Origin: Pelagibacterium luteolum
GTDB lineage: Bacteria > Pseudomonadota > Alphaproteobacteria > Rhizobiales > Devosiaceae
Direction: 5' to 3'
DNA length: 47,731 nt
Assembly: GCF_900100665.1 (NCBI RefSeq)
Contig: NZ_FNCS01000023.1
Coordinates: 1-47,731, forward strand
The translations under genes were made by a program, and so were the position numbers. Positions 13,773 through 47,684 of this stretch are shown here, piece by piece (position 1 is the stretch's first letter; every line of letters starts with the position of its first letter). Below the pieces are notes generated by a model, which made no database searches, was not told where the DNA came from, and saw only the letters and a program-made list of their open reading frames with translations.

Positions 13773-14008
13773 GGCGGAACTCCTCTTGCCGTGTTTGACA
13801 AGGGACCTGCTCCACTACCAGTGAAGCGAGAAAAGCCGGCCCCTGAGGTGAACCGACATCGTGCGGGTTACGCACCAGAGGGGCCCGGATCACGGCTGAA
13901 GAGATAAAGACGCAAAAGCACCTTTCAAGAGCGGTTACGAGAATTTTTCGCCGCGTGTGGAGGTCGGGCGGTAGCTCGGCCGGTAGCCGATGTGGCGTAC
14001 ATAGACCT

Positions 14009-28168: not shown

Positions 28169-29164
28169 GTGGATACGCTGCTCCAGCTTGCCATCGGCAA
28201 CCTACTGTCACCGATGGTCCTGTTCTTTGCCTTGGGCGTCACAGCCGGCTGGCTCAAATCCGATCTCGCCATCCCCGAGGCAATCAGCAAGGGTTTGTCG
28301 CTCTATCTGATGCTGGCGATCGGATTCAAGGGCGGCGTCGAGCTCGCCTCGAACGGCGTTGCCGGCGCAGTCGCAGTCGCCTTGGTCCTGGCGCTCGCGC
28401 TCAGTTTTTGCCTGCCTCTCCTTGCCTATGCCTTACTCCGCGCGGCCACACGGCTCGATATTCCAAACGCAGCCGCCGTAGCGGCGCACTACGGTTCCGT
28501 CAGCATCGTAACCTTCGTTGCGGCGACCGGCTTTCTCGGATACCGAGCCATACCGTATGAAGGTTACGTGGTGGCGATGCTCGCCCTCATGGAGACGCCG
28601 GCGATCGTAACCGGCCTTCTCCTTGCCCGTCGCTCTAACGCTGCCGGACCGACCGCGTCGCGCGCGCCTTTCCTTTCGAGAGAGGTCGCCCGCGAGGTGT
28701 TCCTGAGCGGCGGCGTCGTGCTGCTCGGCGGCAGTTTCGCGATTGGCTGGATCACAGGCGACAAGGGCATGGCGGTAATGGCGCCGGCAATTGTCGATCC
28801 GTTCAAGGCCGTGCTTGCCGTCTTCCTTCTCGACATGGGCTTGCTTGTCGGCCGCCGCCTGCACGACTTCAGAGCGGTGGGCTGGCCGGTGGTGGCGTTC
28901 GGCCTCTACATGCCCCTGATCGGAGCCATGATCGGGCTGCTCGCAGCCCATGCCATCGGCCTGTCTTTGGGCGGCATGACGCTCGTCGCCGTACTCGCCG
29001 CAAGCGCCTCCTATATCGTGGTTCCGGCGGCAATGCGCCTGTCGCTGCCGCAGGCCAATCCGGCGATCTACATTCCCTTGTCTTTGGCCGTCACCTTTCC
29101 GTTCAATTTGATTGTCGGCATCCCGCTCTATTACGCTGGCGCGCAATGGCTCGTCGCACTGTGA
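28169..29164 (+). CDS. sbtA: SbtA-like sodium-dependent bicarbonate transporter
   Basis: 331 residues, ten or so membrane segments. 'SPMVLFFALGVTAGWLKSDL' and 'ISKGLSLYLMLAIGFKGGVE' at the start, 'AAHYGSVSIVTFVAATGFL' in the middle, and 'LAASASYIVVPAAMRLSLPQ' then 'ANPAIYIPLSLAVTFPFNL' near the end are the signature SbtA (DUF897) regions; in cyanobacterial SbtA these Ser/Asn-rich helices bind Na+ and HCO3-. Followed 16 bases later by the PII-like sbtB, the same pairing as in cyanobacteria. No carboxysome or Rubisco gene is seen, so the role is likely anaplerotic bicarbonate supply or pH/Na+ handling (inference). Confidence 0.92.
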   Translation: MDTLLQLAIGNLLSPMVLFFALGVTAGWLKSDLAIPEAISKGLSLYLMLAIGFKGGVELASNGVAGAVAVALVLALALSFCLPLLAYALLRAATRLDIPNAAAVAAHYGSVSIVTFVAATGFLGYRAIPYEGYVVAMLALMETPAIVTGLLLARRSNAAGPTASRAPFLSREVAREVFLSGGVVLLGGSFAIGWITGDKGMAVMAPAIVDPFKAVLAVFLLDMGLLVGRRLHDFRAVGWPVVAFGLYMPLIGAMIGLLAAHAIGLSLGGMTLVAVLAASASYIVVPAAMRLSLPQANPAIYIPLSLAVTFPFNLIVGIPLYYAGAQWLVAL

Positions 29165-37148: not shown

Positions 37149-37910
37149 ATGCAACTCGAAATTGCGACTACCCGAATTGAGGACGAAACACCCGGAGAGG
37201 GACACTTGCCGAGCAGAGCCTTCGACCAGTTGCGAGATGCACTAGAAACGGCCCAGGGGATGGCGCCGGTCAAAGCCGCGGTGAAGGAATTCGCCGGCCA
37301 ACTGGGATTTGACTGGTTCGCCTATCTCTCGGTCTGTGGACCGGAGATCGACACGTTTTCGACGTACCCGCGCGCATGGCAAGGCCACTATATCAACAAG
37401 AAATACGCGACGATCGATCCCGTCGTGCAGGAAGCCCGCCGCTCTGAGCGCTGCTTTGCGTGGTCCGAACGCGACCTTGCACGAGCATTGTCGCCGGACC
37501 AGGTGCGCTTCCTTGGAGAAGCCGGGGATCATGGCATCGCATCGGGGATATCTGTGCCGGTGTCGGCCGGATTCGGCAGGACAGTATTGTTCACTCTCGC
37601 GTCCTCGAACCGGTGTGACAATTGCCTGGTGGAATGCCCCTTCCTTGCCGCTTCGATTGCATCGCACGTGGATGTCTATGCGCGGCGCTGGATGCTTGAG
37701 CCAATGCCTGCTGTCGCCGTCAAGCTAAGCCCTAGAGAGAGGCTCTGCCTGAGCTGGATGGCTAAAGGCAAACGCATGTCCGAAATCGCGCAAATCGTCG
37801 GAACCAAGGTCCGGACGGTCGAGTATCACCTGCAAAATGCTCGGCGGAAGCTGGATGCCACCAATGTCACTCACGCCGTGGCGCTTGCGGTGCGTCAACA
37901 GTTGATCTGA
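37149..37910 (+). CDS. luxR: LuxR-family quorum-sensing regulator (AHL-binding type)
   Basis: 253 residues. The N-terminal autoinducer domain keeps the ligand residues with TraR spacing: W77, Y81, D90, P91 and W105. The C-terminal LuxR helix-turn-helix reads 'KLSPRERLCLSWMAKGKRMS' then 'EIAQIVGTKVRTVEYHLQNA'. It should dimerise on binding an acyl-homoserine lactone and control promoters. Its likely partner luxI, divergent, is truncated, so it now works as a LuxR solo responding to other producers or not at all. In Rhizobiaceae such pairs often control conjugation and repABC copy number. Confidence 0.93.
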   Translation: MQLEIATTRIEDETPGEGHLPSRAFDQLRDALETAQGMAPVKAAVKEFAGQLGFDWFAYLSVCGPEIDTFSTYPRAWQGHYINKKYATIDPVVQEARRSERCFAWSERDLARALSPDQVRFLGEAGDHGIASGISVPVSAGFGRTVLFTLASSNRCDNCLVECPFLAASIASHVDVYARRWMLEPMPAVAVKLSPRERLCLSWMAKGKRMSEIAQIVGTKVRTVEYHLQNARRKLDATNVTHAVALAVRQQLI

Positions 37911-38053: not shown

Positions 38054-38166
38054 ATCGGCTGCCGATATCGGCAAGGGAGATCGGCAACTAATATCGGCAA
38101 TTGTGCTGACTTGTTGTCTCTAATGCCTTACATTGCAATCCATTGAGGCACGATAGAGATCGGCAA
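38054..38166 (+). repeat. 13-bp-spaced iterons upstream of fic
   Basis: ATCGGCAA at 38067-38074, 38080-38087 and 38093-38100, with a related ATCGGCTG at 38054-38061: an exact 13-bp period. A further ATCGGCAA is at 38159-38166, just before the fic ATG. The first units form a perfect 14-bp palindrome TGCCGATATCGGCA (38060-38073). Probably binding sites for a regulator of fic. Confidence 0.75.
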
Positions 38167-38169
38167 AGA

Positions 38170-39399
38170 ATGCTTGAAACCCCTGCCCGGATCGAGCCGC
38201 TGTTTTTTGACGACGCGGTGCCGACCGTTCTGGCCGATCTTGCAATCGAGCTGCAGAAGGCCGCCGATGAACTCGGCCGAGGCTTGCATCCTGAGTCCGC
38301 TGACGAATTGGCCGATCTCGTACGAGTCATGAATTCGTACTATTCGAATTTGATCGAAGGCCACAACACCCGACCTCGAGATATCGAGAGCGCACTGGCT
38401 GGCGCCGAGATAGATCCCCAACGTCGTCCCCTCGCCCTGGAGGCGAAGGCCCATGTTGAAGTTCAGAGGATGATTGACGGCCTCGGGTTGCGCGGCGAGC
38501 TGCCGAGCCCGACTTCGATCGATTTCATTCGGTGGGTTCATCGCGCCTTCTATGACGAGATGCCCGAAGAGTTCCGGTTCATCGACAAACCTGATGGCGC
38601 CAAGGCTGAGATTGTTCCCGGCGTGTTCAGGATGTCCACCGAACATGATGTCGCTGTCGGCCGTCATCAGCCACCGTCCTCTGACAGGGTGGTGGCTTTT
38701 ATGGAGTATTTCCAGAAGCGGTTTGCCATGGCCGAAAAGCAGGCGAGCCTGCGGATCATCGCGATTGCGTCAGCTCATCAACGCCTCAACTACATCCACC
38801 CGTTTCCAGACGGTAACGGCCGCGTCAGTCGCCTGATGTCTCACGCCATGGCGCTCAAGGCTGGTATTGGCGGTAATGGCCTGTGGTCGATATCTCGTGG
38901 CCTCGCTCGTGGCCTGAAAGATCGTGGCGAATACAAGCGCATGATGGATCACGCCGACAGTCCCAGACAAGGCGATCGTGATGGACGAGGAAATCTTTCG
39001 GAATCGGCACTCAAGGATTTCGTCGAATGGTTTCTTACGGTCGCGCTGGACCAAGTACGGTTCTCGACTGCAATGTTCGACCTCGGACGGCTCGATGCTC
39101 GCTACCGCGCCCTAATAAAAGATGTCGTCGACGACAGACGAGCACCTGATCTGGTGGCGGCCGTATTGCGGCACGGCAGGTTGCCCCGTGGCGAGGCCAA
39201 TTTCGTGCTGAAAACATCCGAGCGCACGGCCCGGAACACGCTGTCGGATCTCGTCGAGCGCGGGTTTCTGAAATCGGACACTCCGAAGGCACCGGTGCGC
39301 ATTGCCTTCCCCCTCGATTTCAGGGAACGGCTGTTTCCGAATCTCTTCACCGACGCCGAAGTCAATGTCCCGGAACCGCCTTCACCGTCTTTCAAGTGA
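38170..39399 (+). CDS. Fic-domain AMPylase with autoinhibitory motif and C-terminal winged helix
   Basis: 409 residues from ATG 38170; a TTG at 38143 would add nine, but the last iteron overlaps that region. Fic motif HPFPDGNGR starting at H210, the catalytic loop that transfers AMP (or another nucleotide part) to target proteins. Upstream, 'YYSNLIEGHN' carries the S-x-x-x-E-G inhibitory motif (S59, E63, G64), so it is a class II Fic that is held inactive in cis. The C-terminal winged helix ('FVLKTSERTARNTLSDLVER') may let it bind its own iterons. Lies between luxR and repA; target unknown. Confidence 0.93.
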   Translation: MLETPARIEPLFFDDAVPTVLADLAIELQKAADELGRGLHPESADELADLVRVMNSYYSNLIEGHNTRPRDIESALAGAEIDPQRRPLALEAKAHVEVQRMIDGLGLRGELPSPTSIDFIRWVHRAFYDEMPEEFRFIDKPDGAKAEIVPGVFRMSTEHDVAVGRHQPPSSDRVVAFMEYFQKRFAMAEKQASLRIIAIASAHQRLNYIHPFPDGNGRVSRLMSHAMALKAGIGGNGLWSISRGLARGLKDRGEYKRMMDHADSPRQGDRDGRGNLSESALKDFVEWFLTVALDQVRFSTAMFDLGRLDARYRALIKDVVDDRRAPDLVAAVLRHGRLPRGEANFVLKTSERTARNTLSDLVERGFLKSDTPKAPVRIAFPLDFRERLFPNLFTDAEVNVPEPPSPSFK

Positions 39400-39801: not shown

Positions 39802-39828
39802 GGCGCCAGATTGGCCGAAAGGTCGAAT

Positions 39829-41052
39829 ATGGCGCTATTTTCTCGTTCGGGGGACAAAGCGGAGATGGCATTTCTCCCAAGTTTTGAGTTTGACGACAAG
39901 ATCCTTGCCCAGGGTGCCGAGATCTCGCGCAAGCTCGACCAATTGCGCGTCGAGAAGTTTCCGACCGAGGGGCAGAAGACCCTTCGGCGGTTCTCGATGG
40001 CCGAAGTCGCCCACTATCTTGGGATCAGTCCGAACAATCTGAAGCGCCTCCATCTTGAAAAGAAAGGTCCTGAGCCTTTCGTCGGTGCCGGCGGGCGGCG
40101 CTTTTACGCGGCCGAGCAGATGACCGAGCTTCGGGACTATCTCGATAAGCACGGGCGATCGGATTCCAAGAAGTATGTGCCCTACCGCAAACCTGGCGAG
40201 AAGCTGCAGGTCATTGCGGTCGTCAACTTCAAGGGTGGATCGGGAAAGACCACCACCACGGCGCACCTCGCGCAGCATCTGGCGCTCACCGGTCACAGGG
40301 TCCTGACGGTGGATCTCGATCCGCAGGCTTCGCTTTCAGCCCTCCATGGCTTCCAGCCGGAGCTCGACAAGAACCCCTCGCTCTACGACGCGATCCGGTA
40401 CGACAACCCCGCCCCGGCCGAAGATGTCATCCGCAAGACGAACTTCCCCTTGCTCGATATCATCCCGGCGAACCTAGAGCTGCAGGAATATGAGTACGAG
40501 ACGCCGCTTGCCATGCAGTCTCCGTCTCAGGAAGGAAAGCGGTTCTTCACGAGGGTCGCCCGGGCATTGGATTCGGTCAGTGAGCGCTACGACGTCGTGG
40601 TCGTCGATTGCCCTCCGCAGCTTGGCTATCTGACGCTGTCGGCACTGTCGGCCGCCACCTCGGTTCTGATCACCGTCCACCCGCAGATGCTGGACCTGAT
40701 GTCCATGAGTCAGTTTCTGCTGATGCTGGGCAATATCATGAAGTCCATCAAGAGTGCTGGCGCGACGGTCCAGCTGGACTGGCTGCGCTATCTCATCACC
40801 CGATACGAGCCCACGGACATTCCCCAGGCGCAGATGGTCGGCTTCATGCAGTCGATGCTTGCCGAGGAAATCCTGAAGAACCCGATGCTCAAATCCACAG
40901 CGATTTCTGACGCCGGCCTCACCAAGCAGACGCTCTATGAGGTCGAGCGATCGAACTTCAATCGCGATACCTATGATCGGGCGATCGACAGCATGGATGC
41001 CGTGAACTTCGAGATTCAGGGACTGATCCACCAGGCATGGGGGCGGTTATGA
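39829..41052 (+). CDS. repA: RepA, ParA-type partition ATPase of the repABC operon
   Basis: 407 residues from ATG 39829 (a TTG at 39811 lies too close to the predicted start site). N-terminal MerR-like helix-turn-helix ('FSMAEVAHYLGISPNNLKRL', about 55-74) for operator binding. Walker A KGGSGKTT at 135-142, 'VLTVDLDPQASLSALHGF' and 'YDVVVVDCPPQLGYLTLSAL'. RepA drives plasmid segregation with RepB and represses the operon. Usual length for the family. Confidence 0.97.
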   Translation: MALFSRSGDKAEMAFLPSFEFDDKILAQGAEISRKLDQLRVEKFPTEGQKTLRRFSMAEVAHYLGISPNNLKRLHLEKKGPEPFVGAGGRRFYAAEQMTELRDYLDKHGRSDSKKYVPYRKPGEKLQVIAVVNFKGGSGKTTTTAHLAQHLALTGHRVLTVDLDPQASLSALHGFQPELDKNPSLYDAIRYDNPAPAEDVIRKTNFPLLDIIPANLELQEYEYETPLAMQSPSQEGKRFFTRVARALDSVSERYDVVVVDCPPQLGYLTLSALSAATSVLITVHPQMLDLMSMSQFLLMLGNIMKSIKSAGATVQLDWLRYLITRYEPTDIPQAQMVGFMQSMLAEEILKNPMLKSTAISDAGLTKQTLYEVERSNFNRDTYDRAIDSMDAVNFEIQGLIHQAWGRL

Positions 41053-41053
41053 T

Positions 41054-41069
41054 GTTGACTGCCGTCAAA
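41054..41069. promoter_or_regulatory. Candidate parS (centromere-like) site
   Basis: GTTGACTGCCGTCAAA matches the repABC parS pattern GTTNNNNGCNNNNAAC in all but the last fixed base. The repA-repB gap is a known location for parS. Only one near-match was noticed. Confidence 0.4.
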
Positions 41070-41126
41070 ACCGCCAAAAAAACCCACGGTTTCAAGCGCA
41101 TAAGTCGCATAAGGGGGTGCTAGTCA

Positions 41127-42137
41127 ATGGCGCGGAAAAATCCCTTTGCCAGCATCATGGACAACCGCGACGCTCCCGCTGAGCGCCCAGTTGCACGAGA
41201 CTACACCTTCAAGGGGGCATCACGCTCGCTCATAAGCTCGATCGACGAAATGGCGGCCCAGGCAGGCAAGCTGCTCGAGGGTGAGACGATAGTCGAGGTT
41301 GACCCCGACCTGGTGGACCAATCTTTCGCCAACGACCGGCTCAACGTCGATCAGGAAGATTACGAGGCCGACTACGCTCAGGTGTTGGAGTCGATCCGCA
41401 GTTCCGGCCAGAACTCCCCGGCACTCCTTCGCCCTCACCCGCAGCGGCCCGGCCGCTACATGCTGGTCTTCGGTCGCCTCCGCTGGCGCGCCGCAAAAGA
41501 GCTTGGCCTCAAGCTTCGCGCTGTCATCAAGGATATCTCCGAGCGCGATCATGTGATCGCCCAGGGACAGGAAAACAACGCGCGAGCGAACACGTCCTTC
41601 ATCGAGAAAGCACTGTTTGCCGCCGACATCGTTCAGCGGAAATTCGACGAGGACAACGCCACGGCCCTCGCCGCGATCGGTGTCGATCGGCCGACGCTTT
41701 CAAAGATGCTCTCTGTCGCCTCGATGCCCAAGGATCTGCTCGAAGCGATCGGCCGCGCGAAGGCTGTCGGTCGTGATCGCTGGTATGAGCTCAAGCTCCT
41801 CCTCGACAAGCCGGGCAATGTCGACACTGCCTTGGCTCTGGCATCGAGTTCCGATTTTCATGGGATGCCAAGCGAAGCGCGGTTCGATGCGATCGTCGCG
41901 AAGCTGAAGGCATCCAAGCCGCGCCGCCGTGCCGCGCAGGCGCCATCCAAACGCAGCTGGGCGCCGTCTGATGGGCGTGTCGCCGCGGAGATGGTGGCCA
42001 GTGGCAAGAAATTCACCATCGCCCTCAAGGCGAAGGGGACCGACGCAGCAGCGTTCGGTGACTACCTCTCGGAAAATCTCAGCGAGTTGTATGAGGCTTT
42101 CCGTCGGGAAAAACGAGCAACCACGAACGGAGATTGA
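41127..42137 (+). CDS. repB: RepB, ParB-type partition protein of the repABC operon
   Basis: 336 residues. ParB N-terminal domain with 'LRPHPQRPGRYMLVFGRLRW' and 'GQENNARANTSFIEKALFAA' (box II), a helix-turn-helix around 'AIGVDRPTLSKMLSVASMPK', and a C-terminal dimer region. It binds parS and works with RepA in segregation and in repression of the operon. 74 bases after repA. Confidence 0.96.
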   Translation: MARKNPFASIMDNRDAPAERPVARDYTFKGASRSLISSIDEMAAQAGKLLEGETIVEVDPDLVDQSFANDRLNVDQEDYEADYAQVLESIRSSGQNSPALLRPHPQRPGRYMLVFGRLRWRAAKELGLKLRAVIKDISERDHVIAQGQENNARANTSFIEKALFAADIVQRKFDEDNATALAAIGVDRPTLSKMLSVASMPKDLLEAIGRAKAVGRDRWYELKLLLDKPGNVDTALALASSSDFHGMPSEARFDAIVAKLKASKPRRRAAQAPSKRSWAPSDGRVAAEMVASGKKFTIALKAKGTDAAAFGDYLSENLSELYEAFRREKRATTNGD

Positions 42138-42144
42138 GCGCAAA

Positions 42145-42197
42145 AGAAAAAGGCCCCGAAACGGCAATTCCGGAAGACCTTCTCTTTAAGTTTGGCG
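42145..42197 (-). ncRNA. Antisense RNA (ctRNA) controlling repC
   Basis: The repB-repC gap encodes a short minus-strand RNA of about 50 bases. It begins a few bases after the -10 box at 42204-42209 and ends in a hairpin (42152-42179, GGTC-CCGGAA paired with TTTCGG-GGCC, two-base bulge) followed by TTTTT (42147-42151 on the minus strand). In repABC plasmids this RNA base-pairs with the repC leader and sets copy number and incompatibility. Confidence 0.82.
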
Positions 42198-42203
42198 ACT
42201 GAG

Positions 42204-42232
42204 AGAATCCCACTTCCGCGAATCATAGTCAA
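42204..42232 (-). promoter_or_regulatory. ctRNA promoter
   Basis: On the minus strand TTGACT (42232-42227), exactly 17 bases, GATTCT (42209-42204). The strong -35 and perfect spacing fit the constitutive promoters known for repABC ctRNAs. Confidence 0.75.
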
Positions 42233-42302
42233 GACCATTCAGGTCGGTTTGAGCGTCGATTCGGCGAGCAGGTTTCTTTTGCCTAGCGATAGGTGAAGGA
42301 CA

Positions 42303-43613
42303 ATGCAGACGCATACCCCAACGACGCCCTTTGGGCGGCGAACGATGTCGCTTGGCATGATGGCAAGTCAGGCCGTGGCGAAGGCAGTCCCGGAAGGGGC
42401 GCAGGTCCAGAAATGGAAAGTGTTCCAGACGATCCGGGAAGCGCGCGAGCTGATCGGCGCTACGGACCGCGCACTCGCCATTCTCAACGCCCTGCTCTCG
42501 TTTCATCCGGAAACGGAGCTCACAGGCGACGGCGAACTGATTGTCTGGCCGTCGAACGAGCAGCTCATGGCCCGTGCAAACGGAATGCCGGCGACGACGC
42601 TGCGGCGCCACCTGGCCGTCCTGGTCGACTGCGGGCTGATTATCCGCAGAGATAGTCCGAACGGCAAGCGCTTCGCCCGCAAGGGCAGGGGGGGACAGGT
42701 CGAACAGGCCTATGGGTTCGACCTGTCCCCGATCGTTGCCCGGGCTGAGGAATTCAAGGAGCTGGCGGACACCGTCCGGGCCGAAAAGAACGCCTTTCGG
42801 ATCGCCAAGGAGCGTCTCACGCTCCTGCGCCGCGATATCGTCAAGCTAATCGAGACCGGCATTGAGGAGAACGTTCCAGGCAATTGGGGCAGGGTCCACC
42901 AGACCTATCAGGCCATCGTCGGCCGGTTACCGCGCTCAGCGCCGAGGCAACTCATCGAGGATATCTGCTGCGATCTCCACGGCCTCTACACGGAGATACT
43001 CGAGGTACTGGAATCATTTGTAAAAACACAGAATTCGGACGCCAATGAGTCCCATTCTGGTCGCCACATACAGAATTCAAACCCAGACTCCATATTTGAA
43101 TCTAAAGAGGGCTCTGGAAAAGAAGAGGAAGCGGGCGGCAGCGCCGCGGAAACCGACAACGTACGGAGCTTGCCGAAGCGGGAATTGCCTTTGGGCATTG
43201 TGCTGGATGCCTGCCCGAACCTGCGAGAATTGGCCCAAGGCGGCGAAATCCGTCACTGGCGCGACTTTCTGGCCGCGGCGGAACTGGCGCGGCCGATGCT
43301 GGCGATCAGCCCCAGCGCGTGGCGAGACGCCTGCGAGGTCATGGGCGAACAGCATGCGGCGATCACGCTCGCTGCGATCTACCAGCGATCAGACCAGATC
43401 AACAGCGCTGGCGGCTATCTACGCAGCCTGACCGACAGGGCAAGGGACGGCAAATTCTCGACCTGGCCAATGATCATGGCGCTGCTGCGCGCCAAGCTGG
43501 ACGCCGACAAATCGGCAGGGAAGGCTGGCCACGAACCGCCAAGCGGCGGCGGGGAAGGGCGGCTTGAGGTCTCGGAAGCCCTTCTGCGGTCGCTGAACAA
43601 GCCCAGATCGTGA
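42303..43613 (+). CDS. repC: RepC replication initiator
   Basis: 436 residues from ATG 42303. N-terminal winged-helix part: 'RTMSLGMMASQAVAKAVPEG', 'DRALAILNALLSFHPETEL' and 'GMPATTLRRHLAVLVDCGLI'. The C-terminal part reads 'LGIVLDACPNLRELAQGGEI' and 'ACEVMGEQHAAITLAAIYQR'. RepC is the only protein needed to start replication in this family and acts mostly in cis at an origin inside its own gene. Expression is held down by the ctRNA at 42145-42197. The reading frame is complete, so the plasmid should be able to replicate. Confidence 0.97.
   Translation: MQTHTPTTPFGRRTMSLGMMASQAVAKAVPEGAQVQKWKVFQTIREARELIGATDRALAILNALLSFHPETELTGDGELIVWPSNEQLMARANGMPATTLRRHLAVLVDCGLIIRRDSPNGKRFARKGRGGQVEQAYGFDLSPIVARAEEFKELADTVRAEKNAFRIAKERLTLLRRDIVKLIETGIEENVPGNWGRVHQTYQAIVGRLPRSAPRQLIEDICCDLHGLYTEILEVLESFVKTQNSDANESHSGRHIQNSNPDSIFESKEGSGKEEEAGGSAAETDNVRSLPKRELPLGIVLDACPNLRELAQGGEIRHWRDFLAAAELARPMLAISPSAWRDACEVMGEQHAAITLAAIYQRSDQINSAGGYLRSLTDRARDGKFSTWPMIMALLRAKLDADKSAGKAGHEPPSGGGEGRLEVSEALLRSLNKPRS
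43010..43110. other. AT-rich stretch inside repC, probable oriV
   Basis: A clear AT-rich island in GC-rich DNA, between the N- and C-terminal parts of RepC. ACAGAATTC occurs at 43028-43036 and 43070-43078, 42 bp apart (about four helical turns). The replication origin of repABC plasmids lies in such a stretch of repC. Confidence 0.65.
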
Positions 43614-43972: not shown

Positions 43973-44896
43973 TCAGGCCGCCTCAAGCAAGCCGCTGCGC
44001 TTTGCCCTGTCGATGAGGTTCTTGACGGACGATGGTGCCCATTTCGTACCGCCACGGGGCGTACGCTCATGAAGGCGCTCGAGCTGGTTGGCTATTTCGC
44101 GCAAGGTCAGCTCCGGATTGGAGGAATGGATGCCCGCCACCAGGGTCATCAGACGATCCTCAGCTGGCCGAGGCGGCGACTTCCTCAGAAGCGACTTGTC
44201 GGCCATTCCCTCGCTGACAATCCACTTCACCGCGCGCCGTAAACGCTCAGGAGTCCAATCGAGGCCACGTTGCCTGAGAACGCGGGAGATATCGTCCCAT
44301 GTGTGGTCCGGTCGCATGCGCCGCACAATGGGAAGCCACTGGTTCGCGGATGACTGGAGACGCGCTCCATAGGCTGCCTTTTGCGCGGCCGTCATTTTGG
44401 CCAGCGCGTCCGGCCGACGTTCGCGGATCCCTGGATTGCCCGGCATCCGGCCTTTTGCCCTGGCGGCTTTGATGCCCGCCTTGGTCCGCTCGGAGTTGAG
44501 AGCCCGCTCCAGCTGGGCCACGGCGCCAAGAACCTGCAGGGAAAACATGCCTTGCGGCGTCGTGGTGTCGATCGGGTCGCTGAGCGACCGGAAATGCGCA
44601 CCTTTTGCCGTCAGGTCCTCGATGACATCGAGCAGATGGCTTACCGAGCGCGCCAGACGGTCGAGCCGAACGACGACAAGCGTGTCGCCAGCGTCGATCT
44701 CGCGGACAATCTTGGCAAGGGCAGGGCGGGCTCGTGAGGCCCCGGAGCCGTGCTCCCGGACGATTGTCTCACATCCGGCGGACCGCAACTCCATCTCCTG
44801 GGCTTCTGTAGCCTGCTCGTCTGTCGAGACGCGCGCATAGCCGAGTTGCCGGCCCTGTGGTCGACGGGAGGAGTGATTGTGCGGTGTTTTGGCCAT
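43973..44896 (-). CDS. Serine recombinase (resolvase/invertase family)
   Basis: 307 residues from ATG 44896. The catalytic domain begins 'LGYARVSTDEQATEAQEM' with the nucleophile Ser24, and contains 'VVVRLDRLARSVSHLLDVI' with the active-site Arg residues. A longer C-terminal part than in Tn3 resolvases (about 110 extra residues, with 'WDDISRVLRQRGLDWTPERL' and a last helix-turn-helix-like 'LTLREIANQLERL'). Likely resolves plasmid multimers or cointegrates. A candidate res site lies 25 bases upstream. No transposase accompanies it. Confidence 0.93.
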   Translation of the reverse strand: MAKTPHNHSSRRPQGRQLGYARVSTDEQATEAQEMELRSAGCETIVREHGSGASRARPALAKIVREIDAGDTLVVVRLDRLARSVSHLLDVIEDLTAKGAHFRSLSDPIDTTTPQGMFSLQVLGAVAQLERALNSERTKAGIKAARAKGRMPGNPGIRERRPDALAKMTAAQKAAYGARLQSSANQWLPIVRRMRPDHTWDDISRVLRQRGLDWTPERLRRAVKWIVSEGMADKSLLRKSPPRPAEDRLMTLVAGIHSSNPELTLREIANQLERLHERTPRGGTKWAPSSVKNLIDRAKRSGLLEAA

Positions 44897-44920: not shown

Positions 44921-44975
44921 GAGACGAAATTACAAACGTAGAAGATACGGATAACCGATCGTTTGTAAACGTCTC
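44921..44975. promoter_or_regulatory. Candidate res site of the serine recombinase
   Basis: Nested inverted repeat: GAGACG-aaat-TACAAACG at 44921-44938 and CGTTTGTA-aa-CGTCTC at 44960-44975, separated by 21 bases. It lies between the recombinase start and the opposite gene, where res sites and resolvase operators usually are. Confidence 0.6.
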
Positions 44976-45179
44976 TTGAAGGCCTTCCTGACACTCGGCC
45001 GAGCTTGAAACCTCCGCAAATCGGCGTTTCTCGTCAATCTGAGCCACGATCGAGGAGCATCTGTTCAATCCGGAAGCCGCTGACGCATCTTATTGTACGC
45101 GCGCGTGGCAAAAGTACCGCTGTGACGGAAGTGAAGACTATGATAGCTTCCGCATGGAGAACAAAGTGAAGTTATTACA

Positions 45180-46289
45180 ATGCGGTATGAGATCGGAGAT
45201 TTGCCCCTCCAAGCCCTCCTGCCGGCGATCGGCAGAGCGGAGGATCAGGTCGCTCGCCTCGACGAGGCGGTGCGGCGTAGTCCTGTGGGGAAAGGCTTTG
45301 TCGAAAGGGCGCATTTCTTCGATGCGGCCGCAAGCATGTGGATTTCGGGCGAGCTTGTGCACGTCGAGGATCTCGTCCTTCATGACGCCCACATGGACGT
45401 GCGGGCGCCGACGCATGAGCTTACCATATCGCATGCGATACTGCGCGCCCGCCGACGGATCGCGGATGCCGATCCCGCCTGTGCTGTCAGCGGCTCGGGC
45501 CTTTTAGCGCTTTTGGGCCTGAGAGGCGCGCCCGATGGGGCAGCCGAGTTTGACCGAGGCCCGGTTGATGATGGCGGTGGGAACGACTCTCTAAGAGGAG
45601 AGGAGGCATTGTCCGCGGAATTCGCCGCGATCGATGCGGTTCTCGAACGTTCCCGGCGCATTCTGGAAGGGGCTCCTGCCGTTCATACCGAGAGGCCCCA
45701 AAGTGTCATCGTGGGAGATCTGGTCGTCCGCGATGCTGAATGGGATGAGCGCGGCAGGATCGAGCAATGGCAGGCGGTCGGTCGTGAGGTCGAAGACATG
45801 CCACCGACGCTCGCGGCCGCAGTTCTTTGGGAGGCGTGGGAAACCCTGGAACCACTCCAGAACAAGCACTGGCTCGGCCCTTTGGTGGTCGGCGCCTGGC
45901 TCCGATCCCGGCGCAAGGTGGCCTCACATCTGTTTTGCATCAATGTCGGGCTGAAGACGATCCCACGCGAACGCCGACGGTCGCGGAGCAAGACGACGCG
46001 TCTACTGGCGGCTCTCGACGCCATGTCGGCCGCCGGCGACGCCGGCATGAAGGAGATCTCTCGGCTTGCCCAGGCGCGGGAGCAAATGCAGCGACGGCTG
46101 CGGTCCAGGCGTTCGTCGAGCAGTCTGCCAGGTGTGATTGATCTGATCCTGTCGCGGCCGATCGTGTCTGCGACGATGATCGCCAAGGAGGTGAATGTAA
46201 CGCCGCGCGGCGCGCTTAACCTCATTACTGAGCTTGGCGTGCGGGAGATGACGGGCAGGGGACGGTATCGCGCATGGGGAATTCTCTGA
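45180..46289 (+). CDS. RHE_PE00001-family plasmid protein (DUF1612 with helix-turn-helix)
   Basis: 369 residues from ATG 45180. N-terminal DUF1612-like region ('LPAIGRAEDQVARLDEAVRR', 'HFFDAAASMWISGELVHVED', 'MDVRAPTHELTISHAILRAR'). C-terminal part with 'LWEAWETLEPLQNKHWLGPL', 'ASHLFCINVGLKTIPRERR' and a terminal helix-turn-helix 'IVSATMIAKEVNVTPRGALN'. Common on rhizobial plasmids near the replication region. The fold resembles Fic/DOC-type wHTH proteins of unknown role. Intact. Confidence 0.87.
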   Translation: MRYEIGDLPLQALLPAIGRAEDQVARLDEAVRRSPVGKGFVERAHFFDAAASMWISGELVHVEDLVLHDAHMDVRAPTHELTISHAILRARRRIADADPACAVSGSGLLALLGLRGAPDGAAEFDRGPVDDGGGNDSLRGEEALSAEFAAIDAVLERSRRILEGAPAVHTERPQSVIVGDLVVRDAEWDERGRIEQWQAVGREVEDMPPTLAAAVLWEAWETLEPLQNKHWLGPLVVGAWLRSRRKVASHLFCINVGLKTIPRERRRSRSKTTRLLAALDAMSAAGDAGMKEISRLAQAREQMQRRLRSRRSSSSLPGVIDLILSRPIVSATMIAKEVNVTPRGALNLITELGVREMTGRGRYRAWGIL

Positions 46290-46395: not shown

Positions 46396-47001
46396 ATGGT
46401 TCGCACCGCGCCAAACCCGAGCAGCACTCGTTCTGATTCCCTGCAGGCGGCCTTTCTTCGGCGCGCAACATCTGCGCTTGAGCGCATGGCGGCCACCGCG
46501 TCGCCGAAGACACTGTCCGACGCTTTGGCTGCGCCAACCGATGCGGGTTCGCTTGCATGGCTCCTCAGCCGGTCCGAGGTTGTCGGTCCAGCCGTCATCG
46601 AGCTCGACCCGCTGGTCCCTGCCTTGGCGAGGAACGTCGAACACCGCAAGCTCCTGCTTGAGCGCGCCGGCGGCACTTTGTCGGCAGAGGATACGGGTCG
46701 GCTGCTCGGCATCTCGCGCCAGGCGGTCGACAAGCGCCGGCGAGCCGGAGCGTTGCTTGCTGTTCGCGAGGGGAGCGACTGGCGTTATCCCGCCTGTCAA
46801 TTCGAAGAGACGGACGTCGTCGCCGGTATCTCGGATGTCATTCGAGCGTACGCTTCGGCTGGGCCGTGGGTGGCGCTCGATTTCCTGCTCGCGCCCGACT
46901 CGGCGCTTGGAGGACGATCGGCCCTTGAGACGCTGAAGTCCGGCGATCGGGCCGCGGTCCTGCGCCTCCTGCGCAGTGAGGCGCAGGACGGGTTTGCATG
47001 A
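46396..47001 (+). CDS. Xre/MbcA-type antitoxin of a RES toxin
   Basis: 201 residues. A helix-turn-helix near 95-120 ('AEDTGRLLGISRQAVDKRRR'), then the toxin-binding DUF2384/MbcA-like C-terminal part ('AGPWVALDFLLAPDSALGGR', 'SALETLKSGDRAAVLRLLRS'). It neutralises the RES toxin and represses the operon. Overlaps the toxin start by four bases (ATGA). Strong promoter directly upstream. Confidence 0.9.
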   Translation: MVRTAPNPSSTRSDSLQAAFLRRATSALERMAATASPKTLSDALAAPTDAGSLAWLLSRSEVVGPAVIELDPLVPALARNVEHRKLLLERAGGTLSAEDTGRLLGISRQAVDKRRRAGALLAVREGSDWRYPACQFEETDVVAGISDVIRAYASAGPWVALDFLLAPDSALGGRSALETLKSGDRAAVLRLLRSEAQDGFA

Positions 47002-47684
47002 CGCCGAGGAAGCGGACCGCACCCCGCGGTCCCTCCGGTCTGGCGCCTCCTCCTCCCGAATGGCTCGCTGACATATCGCTGCCGATCGACGAGATTCAGG
47101 CCGGACAAGTGTTGCACCGTGTCCACCGTTCGTCGCTCGCCCCGATCTTCTTCGGCCCCGGCTCCAACGTGCCGCCCACGAACCGCTTTGACAGCGCCAG
47201 CGGACGGTTCGGAGTCCTCTATGCCGGTCTCACCCTTCGCAGCGCCCTGGCCGAAACCCTCGTGCGCAGTCCGCAACGTCTCACGGTGGCCATGACCGAT
47301 ATCATTGGGCGCTCCGTATTCGGGCTTGTCTCTGACAGACCTATGCGGATTGTGCGCCTGTATGGATCGGGACTGCAGACGGTCGGGACGGACAACTCGA
47401 TTTCGACCGGACCCTATGAGCCTTGCGGCCTTTGGTCAGACGCCCTCTGGGATCACTCAGACCGTCCGGATGGATTAGCCTACCAGTCGCGCCATGACTC
47501 CACCGAGATCTGTTTCGCGATCTTTGAAAGAGCCGATCTTCGCCTTAAAGCTGAGGGAACCCACGCGTTGTCGAGCATGCTTAGAGACGTGGCCGCAGTG
47601 CTCGACAGCTATGGCAAATCCGTGTCCCCACCCCTCTTGTCGGGCGAAATGAGAAACTGCCCCCCAAACGAAACGAAGAACTGA
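46998..47684 (+). CDS. RES-domain toxin, C terminus changed by IS21 insertion
   Basis: 228 residues as read. RES-domain hallmarks: 'VLHRVHRSSLAPIFFGPGS' (first Arg), 'NRFDSASGRFGVLYAGLTLR' and 'SALAETLVRSP' (Glu), then 'QSRHDSTEICFAIFE' (Ser). RES toxins (MbcT type) break down or ADP-ribosylate with NAD+. The last 14 residues ('LSGEMRNCPPNETKN' region) are encoded by the IS21 left end, which starts at 47638. Joining 47637 to the bases after the left IS tip (350 on) would give a stop codon TAA immediately after ...SVSPPL, so the natural protein is probably about 213 residues. Confidence 0.9.
   Translation: MTPRKRTAPRGPSGLAPPPPEWLADISLPIDEIQAGQVLHRVHRSSLAPIFFGPGSNVPPTNRFDSASGRFGVLYAGLTLRSALAETLVRSPQRLTVAMTDIIGRSVFGLVSDRPMRIVRLYGSGLQTVGTDNSISTGPYEPCGLWSDALWDHSDRPDGLAYQSRHDSTEICFAIFERADLRLKAEGTHALSSMLRDVAAVLDSYGKSVSPPLLSGEMRNCPPNETKN
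47633..47637. repeat. Candidate 5-bp target-site duplication (CCTCT), right copy
   Basis: Matches 345-349 and directly abuts the IS21 left tip. Confidence 0.65.

Follow-up and report, generated by a model that had tools for sequence, protein, structure and literature searches.

Does the short inverted repeat beside the serine recombinase gene of a Pelagibacterium luteolum contig mark a site at which DNA is recombined, and if so, what would the recombinase accomplish there? The window, that is, the whole stretch of 47,731 nucleotides analysed here, carries the recombinase next to repABC genes. An earlier note on this DNA, made from the letters only, had described a res-like nested inverted repeat and had suggested that it belongs to a plasmid multimer-resolution module.

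The recombinase gene begins with an ATG at 44896 on the minus strand, and the gap between it and the repeat (44921-44975) is 24 bp, in agreement with the roughly 25 bp first reported. Its 307-aa product contains the resolvase catalytic domain PF00239 (residues 18-150, E 1.7e-41), and the enlarged C terminus noticed earlier is evident when the protein is set against the 183-209 aa of the longer small-resolvase and invertase chains recovered in a PDB search. Among solved structures the catalytic domain is nearest by sequence to the Gin invertase (4m6f, E 3.6e-36; 3uj3) and then to the gamma-delta resolvase. Arg22, Ser24, Asp79, Arg80 and Arg83, which we take to be the catalytic set by comparison with gamma-delta resolvase, are invariant in 35 aligned relatives, and with these serine and arginine residues and its resolvase domain the protein falls among the small serine resolvases and invertases. 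Large serine integrases are about 500 aa long and carry PF07508 and a zinc-ribbon domain; this identity was rejected on account of the 307-aa length and a PF07508 score of only 14-16 bits (cut-off 21.1). Residues 150-307 matched no Pfam family above cut-off. An AlphaFold model based on 32 sequences (mean pLDDT 78, pTM 0.42) predicts three-helix modules at residues ~162-228 and ~245-301, which suggests two DNA-binding modules per subunit; a fold search run with the model as a whole gave resolvase and invertase chains at the top (1gdt, E 4e-10).

Over 304 of its 307 residues the protein is 61% identical (E 2e-133) to the product of a gene beside repC on Rhizobium etli p42d, which we take to be rinQ because that recombinase adjoins repC. 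This full-length homology, together with the position of the window gene after repC, places it in the RinQ family and bears out the earlier supposition that the module is plasmid-borne. In 16 of 17 plasmid stretches repC lies on the 3' side of the recombinase (it is named in 15, and L009 has an unnamed gene in the same place), and the seventeenth, L017, begins at the start of its record. RHE_PE00001 is named on the other side of the recombinase in 14 of the 17, and on pTiC58 the order is repC, recombinase and RHE_PE00001, with the site between the last two. The reported lack of a transposase nearby also held: ten neighbouring ORFs in the window gave no Pfam match to a transposase family, two of them having no match of any kind, and no Tn3-family transposase is annotated in the 17 plasmid stretches, whose PLSDB gene tables are not complete. 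L002 lists a Mu-type transposase C-terminal protein 3.6 kb away. Upstream of repA, the window encodes a LuxR-type autoinducer-binding regulator (37149-37910, plus strand) and a Fic-domain gene (38143-39399, plus strand), and its sole Rfam match above the gathering score is a terC RNA (13844-13896, minus strand, 46.2 bits).

The family is widespread. At E 1e-40 or better, tblastn found it in 729 plasmid records, 685 of which align in one place with 80% or more of the protein; most of those listed name the gene only 'recombinase family protein'. The hosts are soil and marine bacteria, and crown-gall plasmids are included. At E 1e-12 there were at least 5,000 records, of which at least 690 cover at least 80% of the query, the other matches listed being mostly to the catalytic domain.

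The 55-bp repeat has the form GAGACG-AAA-TTACAAACG ... CGTTTGTAA-A-CGTCTC, and its outer arms (GAGACG/CGTCTC) and inner arms (TTACAAACG/CGTTTGTAA) both match exactly. The nested repeat of the earlier note is present, but the two pairs of arms are out of register owing to indels, and the local-alignment score of 19 is at chance level, as 20 dinucleotide shuffles of the window each yielded a best repeat of 21-32. Since every shuffle held a better repeat, the repeat by itself is not evidence. It was also absent from the output of an exact-seed repeat search of the window (seed 9, minimum length 12). The strongest inverted repeat of the window is a 40-bp perfect palindrome at 224-263, possibly a terminator, whose score of 40 exceeds those of all 20 shuffles. 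The real evidence for a candidate element at 44929-44976 is its conservation across relatives, not the inverted repeat.

To survey this conservation, we compared upstream regions of the recombinase from four sources: the window, plasmid relatives, the best 80 of 113 genome loci and the rest of the genome of this strain. Similarity of the recombinase decided which loci were included, and 84 of the 104 scanned served to train the profile. An element above threshold was found in 93 of the 104, once in each and never twice in one locus. Among the 11 without a scored site, L020 and L021 (distant enzymes of the same genome) and L103 (the repABC end of p42d) do not represent homologous positions, L086, L090 and L099 have little upstream DNA (~0.1 kb in the first two), L033 and L097 have the right half only, L017 and L102 are of RinQ type with a diverged site, and in L101 no site was found. 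Thirteen loci have other DNA directly upstream of the recombinase; as the site or one half of it was found further out in 10 of these, its proper place is apparently the head of the operon. A fic gene directly upstream of the recombinase is annotated in L016, and L075, L076 and L097 look alike, while L091, L092, L096 and L101 have a putative vapC-like gene directly upstream of the recombinase. In L033, L034 and L058 about 4 kb separates the recombinase from the site or half-site; this DNA begins with a common stretch, TTGTCAAAGTTAGCTTC, which also opens the upstream DNA of L086 and L090.

Over 59 loci nonredundant on the left, the consensus from -30 to +17 consists of TTTyCAAA, three free bases, AGAaGATAcGGATAACcGATC and then GTTTGTAAACGTCTC. 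The best dyad centre of the conserved columns is GA/TC (44958/44959), with a score of 7.8 against 2.4 for the runner-up, and the dyad is smaller than the arms described earlier and off-centre to them, which does not sustain their description as one inverted-repeat unit. When the arms were sought in relatives, the right one proved to be the standard right half-site in 72 of the 93 loci with a site, but the GAGACG of the left arm is not conserved, and where the left arm has TTACAAA relatives more often carry TTTCCAAA. With its left arm not conserved and the repeat at chance level, the arm pair was ruled out as the binding unit; since, moreover, the right arm is a standard half-site, the putative functional unit is the ~48-bp element centred on GATC. 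Its coordinates and those of the neighbouring features are collected in the table.

Features of the window and of the DNA to the right of the candidate site in related loci
Feature	Position	Strand	Remarks
Conserved candidate recombination element	44929..44976		Positions -30..+17 about the centre; column conservation in 59 left-nonredundant loci
Upstream TTTyCAAA element (ATTACAAA in the window)	44929..44936		Inside the left arm of the inverted repeat; possible third half-site
Left half-site of putative crossover site	44940..44958		Stays with the recombinase lineage, whose gene tree its variable bases follow
GATC centre, probable strand-exchange point	44957..44960		Best dyad centre; homology breaks; linkage step between -3 and +2
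Right half-site TCGTTTGTAAACGTCTC	44959..44975		Travels with the right-hand module
Promoter-like TTTACA-16-TATCTT	44942..44969	-	Overlaps the site, reads into the recombinase; consensus scan
Serine recombinase gene, 307 aa, RinQ family	43973..44896	-	Catalytic domain 18-150; C-terminal extension 150-307
repA, repB, repC replication/partition genes	39811..43613	+	ParA-type ATPase, RepB and RP-C domains
RHE_PE00001-family gene (DUF1612 + HTH_13)	45180..46289	+	PF07756, PF11972; NF040876, 512 bits; 221 bp right of the centre; usual right-hand module
HigBA/RelE-MqsA-like module	Toxin match from +68 to +71		9 of the 21 loci with other right halves
Gp49/RelE-XRE module	+95 to +96		4 loci
Xre-RES module	+101 to +126		3 loci
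PIN-domain gene	+521		One locus
Other right-hand contents			4 loci, L005 among them, with an annotated RES gene further right

Six of the eight columns of TTTyCAAA are conserved at 90-100%, the others being -30 (86%) and -27 (63%). The central dyad is consistent with a crossover site of about 28-30 bp, as in small serine resolvases and invertases, to judge from the dyad centre, the half-sites and the break in linkage described below. Known resolvases need accessory subsites. Here just one extra short conserved element, TTTyCAAA, lies beside the crossover site, 23-30 bp to the gene side of the centre; to the right, no column from +17 to +39 reaches 70% among the 21 other right halves. The promoter-like sequence over the site was the single match of a consensus scan that averaged 0.3 in shuffles, which is not evidence of function; it may give the enzyme a means to control its own gene.

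The number of such sites per replicon bears directly on the kind of reaction to be expected. In 16 plasmids searched whole with up to three mismatches, the right half-site occurred exactly once in 14 and not at all in two, both of which have other right halves; a reversed control pattern had no match in any of them. Elsewhere in the genome of this strain, the only exact copy of the right half-site is on contig C47, beside a recombinase 75% identical to that of the window. Matches with three mismatches on C31 and C42 look like chance, and the left-half pattern gave two matches in this genome against six for its reversed control. One site per replicon fits the resolution of dimers, in which two direct copies are present, and not inversion. 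The recombinase on C47 (28504-29415, L019) belongs to the same family, and its site (28424-28442) combines a perfect 14-bp palindrome, CAAACGATCGTTTG, with the exact right half-site of the window, so the two systems could cross-recombine.

Natural recombinants indicate where crossing-over has taken place. In several plasmid pairs one flank of GATC is almost the same and the other shows no relationship, with the match stopping 7-13 bp to the right of the centre. The window and Aminobacter pMDW3 (L002) share 5,068 bp at 96.0% identity, L082 and L084 share 6,987 bp at 99.8%, L015 and L066 share 4,767 bp at 96.9%, and L087 and L088 share 1,173 bp at 99.6% and another 4,972 bp at 99.9% further left. 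In L087/L088 and in L082/L084 the lineage-specific variants of the left half remain with the gene up to GATC. The converse pattern is seen between the window and L082, in which 50 of 50 bases to the right of GATC are identical and 60% of 50 bases to the left. Two Agrobacterium vitis contigs, L075 and L076 (the latter named pTi), match pTiC58 over 4,753 bp at 99.7-99.8% from -26 rightwards; their left side differs and holds an extra gene. L041 is a chimera: its left half is of the window type, and its right flank is 74% identical to p42d between -6 and +117, no match to p42d being found from -114 to -7. When long matches (at least 400 bp, at least 93% identity) with right ends within 3.5 kb of the centre were counted, 26 of the 61 right ends fell at +1..+21. 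Five of these 26 are two standard right halves that part at +17..+21 (L007, L008 and L009, each with L013; L027/L030; L037/L039), and several others share a partner, which leaves roughly nine independent events that involve a different right half. Another 21 ends cluster at -2000..-1401, near repC, and make the site one of two places where matches end.

The DNA joined to the right of the centre differs with the half-site. The standard right half-site is followed by RHE_PE00001 in 63 of 72 loci; the gene starts 219-223 bp from the centre in 62 of these and at 324 bp in one. Three of the nine remaining loci have less than 1 kb of sequence; the other six have a tyrosine integrase match from +156 to +396 and, as they retain the standard right half, must have changed elsewhere than at the site. 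RHE_PE00001 is found in none of the 21 loci with other right half-sites, 18 of which have a tyrosine integrase within 4 kb; no such integrase lies within 4 kb in any of the 63 RHE_PE00001 loci (58 of them with at least 3 kb of sequence). A quickly built tree of the 93 recombinase genes has 85 inner branches, 37 with good and 25 with weak support; the broken recombinase of L098, with three stops, was entered unmended. On this tree the type of right half-site changes 20 times, much as shuffled labels do (263 of 300 as low), and the RHE_PE00001 label changes 24 times, at least 19 of these being forced by well-supported branches. The nine HigBA-like loci account for eight changes yet share one common junction; exchange between sites, occurring again and again, accounts for this better than a fresh capture each time. 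L137 has a HigBA-like relative right after repC, with neither recombinase nor half-site; it is homologous to L087 only from about +54 on, past the half-site, which indicates that such modules also move by other means. A wide search for the HigB-like toxin, with matches in 19 of 297 genomes at no more than 65% identity, was uninformative.

Other contents of these flanks may be recorded here. About 0.1 kb to the right of RHE_PE00001 the window encodes, on the plus strand (46396-47684), a 201-aa protein without Pfam match and then a RES-domain protein (PF08808), which from their position are probably an antitoxin and a RES toxin. To the right of the site in L083 there is a weak HamA match (PF08878, 19.7 bits, cut-off 25), possibly a defence gene. 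The available text of one study describes RHE_PE00001 of the R. etli plasmid pRetCFN42e as essential for growth in rich medium (PMC3898782).

The frequent changes of right half-site and module, and the recurrence of HigBA-like, RelE-XRE and RES modules at the same junction, could be taken to mean that the enzyme serves chiefly for module exchange or integration, in a plasmid cassette system in which the swapping of toxin-antitoxin genes is what is selected and multimer resolution is secondary. Against this, 63 of the 93 loci keep RHE_PE00001, and with none of the 16 whole plasmids found to hold two right half-sites, neither a cassette array nor an excisable unit is seen; we consider such a role unlikely.

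If crossing-over occurs at GATC, sequence to its left should share the history of the recombinase gene and sequence to its right should not. We therefore counted parsimony changes per column on the recombinase tree against shuffled labels. From -45 to -3 there are 29 scorable columns, and 28 of them, all except -23, track the gene, no more than 2 of 100 shuffles giving so low a count; the median ratio is 0.62. From +2 to +16 the median of 11 scorable columns is 1.01 and none clearly tracks the gene, the lowest, +13, being matched by 7 of 100 shuffles; the difference between the left columns and these is significant (Mann-Whitney, p = 5e-6). Most variation in the right half is contributed by the 21 loci whose right halves are of other kinds, and these loci are dispersed over the tree. 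Further right, from +17 to +59, 28 of 43 columns again follow it (median 0.84), because in RHE_PE00001 carriers this flank is to some extent inherited along with the gene. When the 63 carriers are taken separately, the medians are 0.60 on the left and 0.76 on the right, with only three scorable columns at +2..+16. In a control past the other end of the gene, 100 of 100 columns are linked (median 0.56, 0 of 60 shuffles as low), and bases -27, -16 and -3 are likewise unlike shuffled labels (0 of 300 as low). On the left-to-right passage, linkage begins to be lost between -3 and +2, at GATC, which is where strand exchange by a serine recombinase would be expected.

Mantel tests on 53 loci correlate the right flank more with RHE_PE00001 (0.70) than with the recombinase (0.34), and the left flank more with the recombinase (0.53) than with RHE_PE00001 (0.32). 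The correlation between recombinase and RHE_PE00001 (0.38) is not below that between recombinase and RepC (0.36), so the test did not single out the site. In two of the three clusterings tried, the subtypes of RHE_PE00001 agree with the recombinase tree (with five clusters, 10 changes against 25.4 for shuffled labels; with three clusters, 30 of 300 shuffles were as low). Taken together with the Mantel values, this means that most plasmids keep the pair: joint inheritance of recombinase and RHE_PE00001 is the usual state, with some twenty replacements.

These data also bear on whether the recombinase need be involved at all. Many plasmids carry the element in nearly the same form, so that it could act as a short homology, and a promoter-like match overlaps it; ordinary homologous recombination within a ~48-bp promoter or regulator sequence might have joined the chimeras. 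The break in linkage, however, falls between -3 and +2 rather than across the conserved stretch, it coincides with the dyad centre, the left-half variants of the pairs named above stay with the gene as far as GATC, and no such break is present in the 100 bp beyond the other end of the gene. We judge this explanation to be quite improbable.

The res of Tn3 is about 120 bp long and has three dyad subsites. A linked transposase, in the incomplete gene tables of the 17 plasmid stretches, and a res of this kind, in the conserved columns, were looked for and neither was seen, by which a Tn3-family resolvase was rejected, and the ~48 bp conserved here agree with the earlier suggestion of a module that differs from Tn3 types. 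A variant of this idea is that a long resolvase like that of ISXc5 was stranded together with its res after loss of the transposon. Some Tn3-family transposons are described, in the available part of the source, as encoding resolvases of ~310 aa with a ~110-aa C-terminal extension (PMC12217951), a length that the window enzyme shares (307 aa, Pfam domain ending at 150), and toxin-antitoxin pairs abut res in Tn3 elements according to the accessible text of PMC7157771. On the other side, the annotations of the 17 plasmid stretches, incomplete as the gene tables are, name no Tn3 transposase, strong conservation is confined to -30..+17, at least 690 of at least 5,000 records cover 80% or more of the query, and the five Xanthomonas matches listed align with residues ~6-138 only, so that no C-terminal kinship was detected among them; such an origin appears very improbable. 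Inversion needs two inverted sites in one replicon, and a DNA invertase that flips a segment, although suggested by the closeness of the catalytic domain to Gin and by the annotation of one homologue as 'putative DNA-invertase y4cG', is scarcely credible given that no second site was found in the same replicon, either in the 16 whole plasmids or in this genome, whose only other exact copy sits on another contig.

We therefore regard it as probable that the window encodes a RinQ-family plasmid multimer resolvase whose site also recombines between plasmids. The comparisons point strongly to the site itself, to its centre, to natural crossing-over there and to one right half-site per replicon; they suggest, with less force, that the adjacent recombinase makes the crossovers, that it resolves multimers and that fusion is the route to the chimeras. 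A recombinase dimer would bind the compact site at the head of the operon, composed of two half-sites around GA/TC and the one conserved element 23-30 bp to the gene side, which may hold a third subunit. Two sites would then pair, and each would be cut and rejoined at its central bases in the manner usual for serine recombinases. In plasmids that carry a single site, this would chiefly split dimers; a reaction between two plasmids would fuse them, and later breakdown of the fusion elsewhere would yield chimeras joined at GATC. In this manner the right-hand modules, RHE_PE00001 or toxin-antitoxin genes usually accompanied by a tyrosine integrase, could be exchanged next to repABC. As for the earlier note, its observation is partly confirmed and its interpretation partly supported, and the underlying idea of a plasmid resolution module is largely supported.

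A broader reading, for which we see an even chance, is that RinQ-type resolution sites are a common joint of repABC plasmids across the Hyphomicrobiales, Ti plasmids included, at which core and module units are reassorted with base precision by the plasmids' own resolvase. The replicon core would be repABC with the recombinase and the left half-site, and the maintenance module would be the right half-site with either RHE_PE00001 or a toxin-antitoxin pair and tyrosine integrase. Were this so, RinQ-mediated incompatibility would be the laboratory face of the intermolecular reaction. The natural recombinants predict the crossover point to within a few bases. The system also offers a testable route by which repABC plasmids, symbiotic and tumour-inducing ones included, might swap stability and toxin-antitoxin genes.

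Among known systems, the TnpR-res pairs of Tn3 and gamma-delta resemble the present one in the predicted fold, in the position of the site upstream of the gene and in the promoter-like overlap, and differ from it in the shorter enzyme, in the linked transposase and in the three-subsite res. The long resolvases of ISXc5 type, so far as described in the consulted part of PMC12217951, share the length of ~310 aa, the C-terminal extension and an invertase-like catalytic domain, here Gin-like; a title in the reference list of that paper calls the ISXc5 resolvase close to DNA invertases. The toxin-antitoxin genes that abut res in Tn3 elements, as portrayed in the available text of PMC7157771, are a close parallel to the right-hand modules.

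By sequence the enzyme belongs with the presumed RinQ of R. etli p42d, and the right flank of p42d resembles the right side of L041. RinQ was described through incompatibility (Quintero, Cevallos and Davila 2002, as related in the accessible part of PMC10194956), whereas the present analysis maps the crossover centre and the exchange of modules across plasmids. The words 'resolvase', 'recombinase' and 'invertase' do not occur in two Ti plasmid papers (PMC6546132, PMC10410297), and a third (PMC5613091) has one unrelated mention of a recombinase. In a mostly open-access literature, to which the 2002 RinQ paper does not belong, we found no description of the site or of module exchange there, and its novelty is accordingly provisional.

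A functional parallel may be Sin of staphylococcal plasmids. According to the available text of PMC3276174, sin is not tied to a transposon and its res sites are rearrangement hot spots; the window system likewise has a plasmid-borne serine recombinase without ties to a transposon, a site beside the gene and a concentration of rearrangements at that site. It differs from Sin in the longer C terminus of the enzyme, in a catalytic domain nearer to Gin, in the ~48 bp of conserved element and in its alphaproteobacterial repABC context. By analogy, the system appears to work like a plasmid resolvase of the Sin kind, while its sequence places it with the p42d gene taken to be rinQ.
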